Below are positions 6,035 to 13,585 of a stretch of 41,309 nt of DNA, piece by piece. Source of the stretch: Aestuariivirgaceae bacterium (lineage in GTDB: Bacteria; Pseudomonadota; Alphaproteobacteria; Rhizobiales; Aestuariivirgaceae); the NCBI GenBank assembly GCA_028282065.1, contig JANQIR010000168.1, positions 1 to 41,309 of the forward strand, in the 5' to 3' direction. The notes beneath the pieces are model-generated. The model saw nothing but the letters and a program-made list of their open reading frames with translations, made no database searches and was not told the origin of the DNA. Positions within the stretch are counted from its first letter, which is position 1. Each line of letters starts with the position of its first letter. The position numbers and the translations under genes are program-made.

Positions 6035-7312
6035 ATGAGCAAGGCAAGTGGGGGCGACAGCAAGAATACCCTCTACTGCTCCTTCTGCGGCAAGAGCCAG
6101 CATGAGGTGCGTAAGCTCATTGCGGGACCGACAGTGTTCATCTGTGATGAATGCGTCGAGCTGTGCATGGATATCATTCGCGAGGAAAACAAGTCCTCGC
6201 TGGTGAAGTCTCGTGACGGCGTGCCGACACCGACGGAGATTTGCCGTGTCCTTGATGATTATGTGATTGGTCAGGCACAGGCCAAGCGTGTTCTGTCTGT
6301 AGCAGTGCACAATCACTACAAGCGCCTGAACCACGCCCAGAAAAACAACGACGTTGAGTTGGCGAAATCGAACATATTGCTCGTTGGTCCGACCGGATGC
6401 GGCAAGACATTGCTGGCACAGACGCTGGCGCGGATCCTCGATGTGCCGTTTACCATGGCCGACGCGACGACTTTGACCGAAGCGGGTTATGTCGGTGAAG
6501 ACGTTGAGAATATCATCCTGAAATTGCTTCAGGCTGCTGACTACAACGTTGAGCGCGCACAGCGCGGTATCGTCTATATCGATGAAGTCGATAAGATTTC
6601 CCGCAAGGCCGACAACCCGTCAATTACCCGTGATGTTTCAGGCGAAGGCGTGCAGCAGGCCCTGTTGAAGATTATGGAGGGCACCGTTGCTTCTGTACCG
6701 CCGCAAGGTGGCCGCAAGCATCCCCAGCAGGAATTTCTGCAGGTTGATACAACCAACATTCTGTTTATCTGCGGTGGTGCGTTCGCCGGCCTTGATAAGA
6801 TTATCAACCAGCGCGGCAAGGGAACCAGCATCGGTTTTGCAGCTGAGGTGCGCGATGAAGATGACCGGCGCACGGGTGAAATTCTTCGGAGTTTGGAGCC
6901 GGAAGACCTTTTGAAGTTCGGTCTGATTCCGGAGTTTGTCGGACGCTTGCCCGTCATTGCCACCCTGGAAGACCTCGACGAGGCGGCCTTGATGCAGATC
7001 CTGGCCGAACCCAAGAACGCGTTGGTAAAGCAGTATCAGCGTTTGTTTGAAATGGAAGACGTCTCGCTGACCATTAAGGAAGACGCTTTGCGCGCCATTG
7101 CTCAAAAGGCGATCGAACGTAAGACCGGCGCTCGAGGGCTGCGGTCCATCATGGAGGGTATTCTGCTCGACACCATGTTCGACCTGCCCGGCATGACGGG
7201 TGTCGAAGAGGCGGTCATATCCAAGGATGTGGTATTTGGCGAAGCCAAGCCGTTGTTGATCTATTCCGACAAGGACGAGCAGACCGCTGCCAAGGACTCC
7301 GCGTCCGCATAA
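6035..7312 (+). CDS. clpX: ATP-dependent Clp protease ATP-binding subunit ClpX
   Basis: AAA+ unfoldase that feeds substrates to ClpP. The N-terminal zinc-binding domain has Cys15, Cys18, Cys37 and Cys40 (CSFC and CDEC). Walker A GPTGCGKT is at 118-125, the pore loop GYVG at 151-154 and Walker B IVYIDE ends at 184. The ClpP-contact loop region with [10 protein letters not shown] lies further on. Length 425 is normal. The ATG follows a good AAGGAG site. The gene is followed by convergent glycosyltransferase genes rather than directly by lon, which is 3.8 kb away here. Confidence 0.98.
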
Positions 7313-9574: not shown

Positions 9575-9811
9575 TTAGCCATGGAAGCTGCCGCGCCGTG
9601 TCCGCTTTTTCTTCTTCTTTTTCTTTTTCTTCTGGTAGGCGGTATTCTGGTCAATGGCCATGGACTTCCAGTTCTGGTCCGCCTGCCAACCTGCTCCGGC
9701 CGGAGAGGCCCCGATCAACGCCGCGCCGCTTACCGATACGATACCAATGGTCAGCGCGGTAGCAATGCCGGCCAGTACAGACTTCGGGTGGGTGCGGGTA
9801 AATGATCTCAT
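9575..9811 (-). CDS. Small exported protein with a nine-lysine C-terminal tract, unknown function
   Basis: I do not recognise the family. The ATG at 9811 follows a GAGGAAA site and gives 78 residues; a longer frame opens at 9871. Residues 1-40 form a clear Sec signal peptide (basic MRSFTRTHPK, hydrophobic core, cleavage likely after SPAGA). The mature part would be only about 38 residues: GWQADQNWKSMAIDQNTAYQ, nine consecutive lysines, then RTRRGSFHG. The lysines use a mix of AAA and AAG, so this is not one homopolymer run. It ends 24 bases before the GT-C gene and probably shares its transcript. It may be a cationic peptide of the envelope or a leader whose lysine tract slows ribosomes ahead of the glycosyltransferase. 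Confidence 0.6.
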   Translation of the reverse strand: MRSFTRTHPKSVLAGIATALTIGIVSVSGAALIGASPAGAGWQADQNWKSMAIDQNTAYQKKKKKKKKKRTRRGSFHG

Positions 9812-9957
9812 GGGTTCGTTTTCCTCGATGCGCGACCGCAGGTCACCGGTTGCAATTGGTTTGCCGAACATAGAGAGCTTTTGGCGGCGTCAGAAATCAA
9901 TTGGCCTTCACAAATAATTCAGTCCGCGGCGATGAACTTGTGTCTTGAGCCGGGCGT

Positions 9958-10863
9958 ATGGGCACCACATCGTTACGCATGACGTCAACCCCGCTCAAGA
10001 AAGATCAAACTGAGATGCAGGCAACCGCTTCACTTCTTTTATCGAGATTGACCAGGATTGGCCTGTTGTGCCTGACGCTCGCTGCCGTTTCCGGCTTCAG
10101 CTTTTCGTGGCGCTCTTCGGCGCCCGAACTGTGGGAGGGCTGGGAAGTCCACGACAATGCCAACTCCGCAAAAATCGATCACTCGACTTGGGATAGCCTG
10201 CTGAAACGCTATGTGACGAAGGGCAGGCAGGACGTGAACCTGTTTGGCTATGGAAAGGTGTCCCGGCAAGATCGGGAGCGGCTCGATGAATATATAAAGT
10301 CCCTGGCGGCGCTGGAAATCACGGCTTATTCGCGCAGCGAACAGCTGGCATATTGGCTGAACCTGTATAATGCGCTGACTGTTCAGGTGATCTTGCAGCA
10401 CTATCCCGTCAAATCAATCAAGGATATCGACATCTCCGGCCTGCTGGCCAACGGTCCATGGGGCAAGGAACTTGTTGAAGTAGAGGGTGAAAAGCTCAGC
10501 TTGGATAATATCGAGCATGAGATACTGCGTCCTGGCTGGAAAGATCCGCGCATCCATTACGGTGTCAATTGTGCGTCTATTGGCTGTCCCAACTTGCAGC
10601 CGGACGCATTTACCGGCGCGAGCGTGGATGACATGCTGACAGCTGGCGCAAAGCAATATGTCAACAGTCCCCGCGGCCTGTCCATTCGAAATGGCAGGGT
10701 TACGGTTTCAAAGATTTACTCGTGGTTTGCCTATGACTTTGGCAATTCGAAGGAAGGCGTGATGCGCCATCTCCTGAAATATGCATCCGCAGAACGTGCG
10801 CACCAGCTTAAGACGGCTGGCGACATTCACGACACGCGATATGATTGGGCGCTCAACGAGTGA
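9958..10863 (+). CDS. DUF547 domain protein, membrane-anchored or secreted
   Basis: The body matches the DUF547 family: SRSEQLAYWLNLYNALTVQ at about 118, ANGPWGKE, and the conserved IHYGVNCASIGCPNLQ with two cysteines at about 200-215. An N-terminal hydrophobic stretch (LTRIGLLCLTLAAVSGFSFSW) looks like a signal peptide or anchor, placing the domain in the periplasm. The start is uncertain: ATG at 9958, 9979 or 10015, the last giving the most compact signal peptide. DUF547 proteins have no established enzymatic role that I can state. It is divergent from the lysine-tract gene and lies 292 bases upstream of lon. Confidence 0.85.
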   Translation: MGTTSLRMTSTPLKKDQTEMQATASLLLSRLTRIGLLCLTLAAVSGFSFSWRSSAPELWEGWEVHDNANSAKIDHSTWDSLLKRYVTKGRQDVNLFGYGKVSRQDRERLDEYIKSLAALEITAYSRSEQLAYWLNLYNALTVQVILQHYPVKSIKDIDISGLLANGPWGKELVEVEGEKLSLDNIEHEILRPGWKDPRIHYGVNCASIGCPNLQPDAFTGASVDDMLTAGAKQYVNSPRGLSIRNGRVTVSKIYSWFAYDFGNSKEGVMRHLLKYASAERAHQLKTAGDIHDTRYDWALNE

Positions 10864-11155: not shown

Positions 11156-13585
11156 ATGAGCGACAGCACAGTAACGAAGTCCGAATCCTCCGACGGTGGC
11201 AATCTGTTTCCCGTCCTGCCTTTGCGCGACATCGTCGTGTTTCCACACATGATCGTGCCGCTGTTCGTCGGCCGTGAAAAGTCCATAAAAGCCCTTGAGG
11301 AGGTCATGCGCGAGGATTCACGGATCCTGCTCGCTGCCCAGCGAGATGCCGCTGACGATGATCCCAGCCCTGAAGGCATTTATGAGGTGGGCACGGTCGC
11401 GTCCATACTTCAGCTTTTGAAACTGCCTGACAACACGGTGAAGGTACTGGTCGAAGGCAATGAGCGTGCGCGAATTCGGCAGTTTGACGGCACGGCGGAC
11501 TTCTTTAAGGCCGAAGTCGAGTTGATGCCGGATATTGCCGATGAGTCTGGTGAGGCCGAGGCGCTGGCGCGCACCGTGGTGTCGCAATTCTCCAGTTATG
11601 TGAAGCTGAACAAGAAAGTTCCGCAGGAAGCCATCGAGAGCATCGGTCAGATTGACGATCACGCCCGCCTTGCCGATACGGTTGCCGCTCATATCGCCAT
11701 TAAGATATCCGAAAAGCAGGAACTGCTTGAAATTCCGTCCGTGACCGAAAGGCTTGAAAAGGTCTATGCGCTGATGGAAGGCGAGATTTCCGTGCTGCAG
11801 GTGGAAAAGCGCATTCGCTCGCGGGTCAAGCGCCAGATGGAAAAAACCCAGCGCGAGTATTATCTGAACGAGCAGATGAAAGCCATTCAGAAGGAGCTTG
11901 GCGACGGCGAAGAGCGCGATGAGATGGCCGAGCTTGAGGAAAAGATCGCCAATACCAAACTCTCCAAGGAGGCGCGCGAAAAGGCCGAAGCTGAACTTAA
12001 GAAACTGCGCCAGATGAGCCCCATGTCGGCGGAAGCGACAGTGGTGCGTAACTATCTGGACTGGCTGACCGGGATACCGTGGGGCAGGAAATCAAAGGTC
12101 AAGAAGGATCTGAATTTCGCCCAGGGCGTGCTCGATGCCGATCACTACGGCCTCGACAAGGTTAAGGAACGCATCGTTGAGTATCTCGCCGTTCAGCAGC
12201 GCACCAATAAGCTGCGTGGCCCGATCCTTTGCCTTGTAGGGCCGCCCGGCGTTGGTAAGACGTCGCTTGGCAAGTCCATTGCAAAGGCCACCGGCCGTGA
12301 GTTCGTCCGTATGTCACTCGGCGGTGTGCGCGATGAGGCCGAGATCAGGGGGCACCGCCGCACCTACATCGGTTCGATGCCGGGCAAGGTCATCCAGTCG
12401 ATGAAAAAGGCAAAGAAATCCAATCCTTTGTTCCTCCTCGATGAGATTGATAAAATGGGTATGGATTTTCGCGGCGATCCGTCCTCCGCGCTGTTGGAGG
12501 TGCTCGATCCGGAGCAGAATTCGACATTTATGGATCACTACCTTGAGGTTGAGTACGACCTGTCCAATGTCATGTTCGTGACGACGTCGAATACGCTGAA
12601 CATCCCGCCGGCCCTGATGGACCGCATGGAGATCATCCGTATCGCGGGTTACACAGAAGAAGAAAAGGTCGAGATTGCCCGGCGCCATCTGATCCCGAAG
12701 GCGGTGACCAGCCATGGCTTGAAGGACGGTGAGCTTGATATCGGTGATGACGCTCTGAAAGACGTAATACGCCGGTACACCCGCGAAGCTGGTGTGCGTA
12801 ACCTTGAGCGTGAAATCAACACGCTTTGCCGAAAGGCCGTCAAGGAGCTGTTGACGTCGAAAAAGCGGAAAATCAAAGTCACTGGCAAGACGCTTGAGGA
12901 CTTCCTCGGTGTACCGAAGTTCCGCTTCGGTGAAGCAGAGCGCGAAGACCAGATCGGTGTTGTTACCGGCCTTGCCTGGACCGAGGTGGGCGGTGAGTTG
13001 CTCACGGTCGAAGCGGTTATGATGCCTGGCAAGGGTAAGATGACCGTTACCGGCAATCTGCGCGACGTTATGAAGGAATCAATTTCCGCAGCGTCGTCCT
13101 ATGTCCGCTCGCGCTCTTCGGCGTTCGGTATCAAACCGCCTGTTTTTGACAAAAAGGACATTCATGTTCACGTGCCCGAGGGTGCGACTCCGAAGGACGG
13201 TCCATCTGCAGGTATCGCCATGGTGACGGCAATCGTGTCCGTCATGACGGGCATCAAGGTTAAGAAGGACGTCGCAATGACCGGCGAAATTACCCTTCGT
13301 GGCCGGGTGCTGCCGATCGGCGGCCTGAAGGAAAAGCTCCTGGCAGCGCTGCGCGGTGGGATCACTAAAGTCCTGATTCCGGAAGAAAACGTCAAGGATC
13401 TCGCCGAGATCCCGAACAGCGTGAAGGATGGTCTTGAGATCGTGCCCGTTTCACGTATGGATGAAGTTCTGGTCTACGCTCTGGAGACGGCTCCTGAAGC
13501 GATTGAGTGGGACGAGGAAGCTGAGGAAGCCGCTGCTGCGGCGGCCGCCAAGGACGAAGCGGATGCGCGCGTGACGGCGCACTGA
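11156..13585 (+). CDS. lon: ATP-dependent protease Lon
   Basis: Cytoplasmic AAA+ serine protease for damaged and regulatory proteins. The N-terminal substrate domain opens with [20 protein letters not shown]; Walker A GPPGVGKT is at 362-369, Walker [10 protein letters not shown] follows. The Ser-Lys catalytic dyad is Ser684 ([11 protein letters not shown]) and Lys727 ([12 protein letters not shown]), with the same 43-residue spacing as in E. coli. Length 809 is normal. The ATG follows a GAGAAG site. The C-terminus ends in a low-complexity acidic and alanine-rich tail ([20 protein letters not shown]). A strong intrinsic terminator lies 46 bases after the stop. Confidence 0.98.

Follow-up and report, generated by a model that had tools for sequence, protein, structure and literature searches.

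The window, i.e., the whole stretch of 41,309 nucleotides that was analyzed, carries a gene for a small protein of 78 amino acids with a predicted signal peptide and a lysine-rich C-terminus (Lys-tail gene), which is followed by genes for a GT-C membrane glycosyltransferase and a GT2 glycosyltransferase and preceded by a divergent gene for a DUF547 protein (Table 1). The initial annotation had recorded the signal peptide, a mature part of about 38 residues, nine lysines followed by RTRR, a distance of only 24 bases to the next gene and the position upstream of a glycosyltransferase pair, and all of these features are present. In addition, we note that the gene is located on the minus strand, that a DUF547 gene (9958-10863, plus strand) diverges from it and that its product has a conserved RGS[F/Y] end.

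Table 1. Genes and sequence features of the Lys-tail locus; positions refer to the window.
Feature	Position	Strand	Remarks
ClpX-like gene, module flank	6035-7312		Name from reading the ORF translation
GT2 glycosyltransferase, 245 aa	7349..8086	minus	Resembles polyprenyl-phosphate-sugar synthases; Pfam, NCBIfam
GT-C membrane glycosyltransferase (GT87-like), 485 aa	8093..9550	minus	Weak Pfam GT87 and fold match
Gene for small, predicted exported Lys-tail protein, 78 aa	9575..9811	minus	ATG at 9811, stop TAA 9575-9577; homologues in 13 other genomes
RTRRGSFHG end	9578..9604	minus	R-G-S columns invariant in 13-row alignment
Nine-lysine tract	9605..9631	minus	AAG AAA AAG AAA AAG AAG AAG AAA AAG; basic tract in 14/14 members
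Variable mature linker GWQADQNWKSMAIDQNTAYQ, residues 41-60	9632..9691	minus	Little conserved in alignment
Predicted signal peptide, residues ~1-40, ending ASPAGA	9692..9811	minus	Read from sequence
Intergenic region, 146 bp	9812..9957		Between, and common to, the divergent Lys-tail and DUF547 genes
DUF547 (PF04784) gene, predicted exported	9958..10863	plus	Divergent in 13/14 loci
Lon gene, module flank	11156-13585		Name from reading the ORF translation

The complete product reads MRSFTRTHPKSVLAGIATALTIGIVSVSGAALIGASPAGA/GWQADQNWKSMAIDQNTAYQ-KKKKKKKKK-RTRRGSFHG, the slash marking the estimated signal peptide cut. The signal peptide was assigned by eye on the basis of its n, h and c regions and the sequence ASPAGA/GW, and the cut was placed by a simple A-x-A rule, so that the mature part is estimated at 38 residues with a net charge of +11 and the spacer from the cut to RGS (Ser75) at about 35 residues. 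The 24 bases to the next gene separate the stop codon from the GT-C start TTG 9550, while other in-frame starts would extend this distance to 42 or 48. Small exported proteins are often missed in annotation, and a named family for the product was not found in either Pfam or NCBIfam (0 matches). A search of the 146-bp intergenic region for a sigma-70-type consensus site did not yield any.

With regard to the glycosyltransferase pair, similarity of the GT-C to Pfam GT87 (E 6.6e-5, 23.2 bits) stays below the gathering cut-off of 25. A structure model with a mean pLDDT of 84.9 has a GT-C-like fold and matched PimE, GPI mannosyltransferase I, AftA, ALG3 and ALG6 in Foldseek at a probability of 1.00, PimE 9dm7 being the best match (E 1.2e-3) and TM-scores by target reaching up to 0.59. 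The GT2 protein matches Pfam Glycos_transf_2 above the cut-off and NCBIfam AglJ at E 9.9e-38, yet with 130 bits vs. a model cut-off of 325. No flippase gene was detected in the immediate neighborhood of the pair, where ClpX-like and DUF547 genes are located. The DUF547 protein matches Pfam PF04784 with 89.9 bits (cut-off 27). Its AlphaFold model (pLDDT 80) did not produce a good match among solved structures (Foldseek best E 0.4, VIA-align 2 best Z 4.7), and a sequence search returned a single match with an E value of 0.95, results that speak neither for nor against the idea of a transglutaminase-like enzyme that might act on the lysines.

The initial annotation had named missing conservation of the lysine tract and the signal peptide as an outcome that would refute it. 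This outcome did not occur: Export signal, basic tract and the place before the GT-C gene were found to recur in 14 alphaproteobacterial genomes of Parvibaculaceae-type, Hyphomicrobiales, Rhizobiaceae and Roseovarius-type affiliation (the window, G001, G014, G019, G031, G034, G094 and G169 as well as the genomes of loci L029, L030, L031, L033, L034 and L035). The GT-C/GT2 pair lies directly downstream in 14/14 cases, including Roseovarius albus, for which the motif script listed no GT-C start and the gene was seen by reading the locus. Roseovarius albus (CECT 7450, L030) is also the one exception to the divergent arrangement of DUF547, which holds for the other 13 of the 14 genomes; in this species, a DUF547 gene is absent from the immediate vicinity of the tail gene. 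A protein search of 100 related genomes uncovered short exported Lys-run ORFs at the same place in the window and in five further genomes, while a contig scan with a GT-C alignment yielded 80 loci, among which a script flagged 15 for an upstream tail ORF. Eleven of these were accepted as carrying the ORF directly upstream, five of them apparently the same genomes as in the other searches (L028 = G169, L032 = G094, L041 = G034, L044 = G031, L065 = G019), and four (L045, L051, L070, L101) were rejected as fragments or frames without the motif. Within the family of the source organism, six out of 69 genomes contain the GT-C and all six also contain the tail gene. The gene occurred once per genome wherever copy number was checked (7/7). 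GT-Cs of the Hyphomicrobiaceae type are not accompanied by a nearby tail gene, so the tail is not required by every such GT-C.

Two other kinds of short ORFs were encountered in the course of these surveys. One Hyphomicrobium locus (L038:4783-4956) features a different exported-looking, cysteine-containing ORF of 57 residues before the GT-C, and L111:1270-1731 (G195) and L112:1417-1740 (G089) encode short exported-looking proteins of a different family with basic, Gly/Tyr/Trp-rich C-termini, e.g., RRRGRRRRRGRRRRRRRRGGAWYWYWAPYWYW.

Profile searches underdetect the family, as evident from alignment profile A4, which missed the tail gene present in G001. They gave six matches in 297 genomes of the order (three true, three rejected on reading), at least five true cases (five read as true) among 12 matched genomes out of 69 from the family, the window alone among 385 genomes sampled from the class, two matches, one of them inside a 1055-residue frame, in 295 genomes of a family sample around G735 and one in 101 genomes of a family sample around G740. 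A profile built from the tail only scored the genome of L033 (G738) under threshold although the gene is present. Within the 14 genomes, it produced matches beyond the known tails at E values of 0.0077 to 9. Those that were translated looked out of frame, lay internally or lacked the motif at the end and were not accepted as additional tailed proteins; a match in L151 (E 2.9), with RRRRGSYS inside a 73-residue frame, was likewise taken as chance.

In an alignment of 13 rows, the R-G-S columns do not vary at all and three Lys columns hardly do, whereas linker and signal peptide are variable. The tail ends in basic residues plus GS, mostly as RGS[F/Y], with RRGSFHG, RRGSYSG, RRGSYFN, RRGSYN, RRGSFK, RRGSFHR, RRGSFY, RRGSFSGA, GGGSFGR and RFGSFF among the members and TRYPAGKGS (twice), TRYPAGQGS and TRYPCGKGS in four Anderseniella-type genomes. 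The tract consists of Lys in most members, of Lys and Arg in some, and contains admixed Glu (E/R) at two Rhizobiaceae loci. Charge is thus kept while residues differ, and the estimated mature parts carry net charges of +7 to +17. The Lys-tail gene is under purifying selection, with whole-gene dN/dS values of 0.09 (G019), 0.07 (G014) and 0.14 (G034) for gap-free relatives; the corresponding values for the tail (0.09, 0 and 0.06) are rough as tail dS is based on about 11 sites.

For phylogenetic analysis of the GT-C proteins, 35 rows were used, chosen from alphaproteobacterial loci that make up a part of the 80, L039 and L063 included, with G014 added. In the maximum-likelihood tree the 14 tail-associated rows formed one clade (support 99/98), which all 200 bootstrap trees (100%) recovered. 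Row L049 of this clade starts at a contig end (contig C78 of G001) and was counted as tail-bearing via contig C59 of the same genome, where a second GT-C start is preceded by a tail gene and a divergent DUF547 gene. The two GT-C starts on contigs C59 and C78 (L134 and L133) overlap and differ, and probably two strains are merged in this bin. When trimmed sequences were compared irrespective of phylogeny, 13 GT-C rows of the tail clade had a lower net charge than 18 rows from outside it (P 9e-4), and a D/E at residue 184 is specific to this clade. Lower charge and an acidic residue 184 would fit docking of a cationic peptide, if weakly.

Tails resembling that of the small protein were also found at the ends of some DUF547 proteins. 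In eight other operons, DUF547 is encoded on the same strand immediately before the GT-C, and here strict GS[FY] tails were present in 2/8, loose ones in 3/8 and none in 3/8 cases. The DUF547 proteins encoded directly upstream of the GT-C at L047:3957-4883 and L159:2-1486 end with RRRRGSFYGQSR and SLGSYTK, respectively. The loose tails, i.e., SYYSGGS (L063), GSRGGGFGS (L067) and RGFGGGGS (L070), have little in common apart from Gly, Ser and an aromatic residue. The proteins of L096, L160 and L161 have no such tail. As controls served 28 DUF547 loci (30 from a class search minus one without an ORF by the filter applied and minus the window), in none of which a GT-C was found in the flank; GS[FY] or basic tails occurred in 0/28, and three proteins end in plain GS. 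In the tail clade, 13 members have DUF547; in 12 of them the protein stops no more than one residue after YDWxLN, and in the remaining one (L033) a short GQVPPAG follows this motif. From this distribution, the tail would seem to be a single module that occurs in two forms, as a fusion to DUF547 and as a free peptide. The loose DUF547 tails may share their function with the free tail peptide.

Codon choice within the tracts differs from that in other genes. AAA-AAA was present in two of 84 Lys-Lys pairs, where shuffling gave 7.5 on average (P 0.002), while long ORFs of the same loci contained 24/120 with 20 to 22 expected (Fisher P 9e-5 for tracts vs. other genes, shared ancestry being ignored). 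Runs of AAA codons reduce expression and cause ribosome sliding (PMC4363877). Since AAA-AAA is rarer in the tracts than in shuffles and other genes, we do not regard poly-A slippage or AAA-driven stalling as the function of the tract; from this avoidance, the gene looks tuned to accurate translation of the tail. RNA structure at the junction between tail gene and GT-C gene did not exceed that of shuffles, neither for 120 nt (mean z -0.25, 14 loci) nor for 200 nt (mean z -0.19, 13 loci), much as at the GT-C/GT2 junction (mean z 0.31, nine loci).

Invariable placement directly before members of one GT-C clade indicates that the gene is not a random stretch of letters but probably encodes a dedicated partner, and coupling to this single clade points to the GT-C as the likely partner. 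Selection at the amino acid level, retention of charge, avoidance of slippery codons and a junction without RNA structure in excess of shuffles together favor a protein that acts as such over a device for setting codon speed. We therefore read the small protein as an exported, strongly cationic partner dedicated to the GT-C encoded right after it, which would be an extracytoplasmic polyprenyl-phosphate-sugar glycosyltransferase, an interpretation to which we assign a probability of about 0.5. The obligatory place before the GT-C start would be equally expected of a cis-acting leader. We infer export and docking as well as the identity of sugar and acceptor within the following scheme: The signal peptide would direct the small protein across the inner membrane. 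There, its flexible linker together with the [K/R]n-RGS[F/Y] end would attach, through charge and through the short conserved motif, to the GT-C on its extracytoplasmic side or to the putative anionic acceptor of this enzyme and thus bring enzyme, acceptor and DUF547 protein together. The GT2 would transfer a sugar to polyprenyl phosphate in the cytoplasm, and the GT-C would pass it on outside. The tail may act in cis where it is part of DUF547 and in trans where it is a separate peptide. The initial annotation had offered two explanations, a cationic peptide that binds anionic envelope polymers made or modified by the enzymes encoded downstream, and a leader whose slow translation controls the GT-C gene. 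Its observation was right and is stronger than originally stated, its interpretation is half right and partly supported: The link to the downstream enzymes gains from coupling to the GT-C and from selection at the protein level, while the slow-lysine leader is weakened by the replaceability of Lys by Arg or E/R, by AAA-AAA avoidance and by junction RNA without excess structure, and retains a layout that agrees with three out of four properties of arrest peptides.

Published searches for such peptides (PMC10987492, PMC7897499) looked for small ORFs that lie upstream of sec or yidC and whose products have an export signal, more than 30 residues of spacer and a conserved C-terminus. The Lys-tail gene agrees in the last three of these four properties, its export signal being assigned by eye. 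The main rival of the preferred reading, though unlikely in our view, is thus a regulatory nascent chain acting in cis: Its polybasic-RGS[F/Y] end would slow down or halt the ribosome until the chain is pulled by export and would thereby make GT-C translation dependent on export, in analogy to SecM and ApdP, which act on sec genes. The gene resembles those of SecM and ApdP as a small exported ORF upstream of a gene for a membrane protein, the gap to the next gene is mostly short, the position before the GT-C is absolute even where the tail ends DUF547 in related operons, and cationic nascent chains slow ribosomes (PMC9207662). Unlike in SecM and ApdP, on the other hand, the downstream gene encodes a GT-C in 14/14 genomes and not a sec or yidC product, the ends are RGS[F/Y], KGS or QGS instead of a RAPP/RAGP-type motif, and RNA structure in excess of shuffles was not seen at the junction. 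In addition, sliding-prone AAA-AAA is avoided, and the tract varies between Lys, Arg and E/R, which is at odds with a residue-specific arrest motif.

The peptide (or, in other operons, DUF547) could also be the acceptor itself, glycosylated by the GT-C at the Ser of RGS in a protein glycosylation system with one substrate. The invariance of this Ser in the 13-row alignment, the single tail gene per genome, the fact that either a small protein or DUF547 can carry such a tail and the resemblance of the GT-C to polyprenyl-P-hexose transferases are in line with such a function, which we nevertheless consider rather unlikely as it leaves the long basic tract without explanation and as the nearest fold matches of the GT-C act on lipids or lipid-linked glycans and not on proteins, which holds true for PimE, ALG3 and GPI mannosyltransferase I. 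Even less probable is an ordinary exported cationic peptide, e.g., an envelope stabilizer or an antimicrobial-like peptide that happens to share the operon; the high mature net charge and the weakly conserved linker would be compatible with it, while strict linkage to one GT-C clade and the single copy per genome argue against it. A spurious ORF, arisen by chance or as a sequencing artefact as the low complexity of its homopolymer-like run might suggest, can practically be dismissed because the gene is found in 14 genomes with conserved frame and position and dN/dS values of 0.07–0.14.

A more far-reaching proposal is put forward only tentatively, as we do not regard it as likely: The polybasic-RGS[F/Y] C-terminus may be a portable tag, present on one exported protein per genome, either DUF547 or the Lys-tail peptide, that serves as an address label for a dedicated GT-C, which would dock to it or glycosylate its conserved Ser in a form of extracytoplasmic glycosylation with a single client. 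Little is known about accessory proteins of extracytoplasmic GT-C enzymes. A peptide strictly inherited with one GT-C clade and its DUF547-fused counterpart provide a handle on the roles of DUF547 and GT-C, and the system offers a clean test of the idea that a polyprenyl-phosphate-sugar glycosyltransferase could be steered, or its translation controlled, by a short basic tail. A published report of such a peptide was not found in the open-access literature, which does not establish its absence from print.

Three-component extracytoplasmic glycosylation (PMC11127046) combines a flippase and a GT-C with a polyprenyl-phosphate-sugar synthase. The GtrA/GtrB/Gtr* and GT136 systems resemble the locus studied here in that a GT2-type enzyme, which is a putative polyprenyl-phosphate-sugar synthase in the present case, and a GT-C are encoded in one operon, whereas here an adjacent flippase gene is absent and genes for a cationic peptide and a DUF547 protein, both predicted to be exported, are added. 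RmpD of Klebsiella (PMC10294653) is likewise tiny, has a hydrophobic N-terminus and a conserved basic C-terminus and acts on a surface-glycan machine (Wzc). The analogy is a purely functional one; the C-terminus of RmpD is cytoplasmic, whereas that of the Lys-tail protein is predicted to reside outside. GT87 mannosyltransferases are represented by PimE, the best PDB fold match of the GT-C model, alongside the weak Pfam GT87 similarity below the cut-off; we know of no peptide partner of PimE. Mycobacterial HBHA is a larger adhesin that acts outside the cell and possesses a C-terminal Lys-rich, glycan-binding tail; the Lys-tail peptide would have in common with it a Lys-rich C-terminal tail on a protein located outside the cell, a location that is predicted for the peptide.
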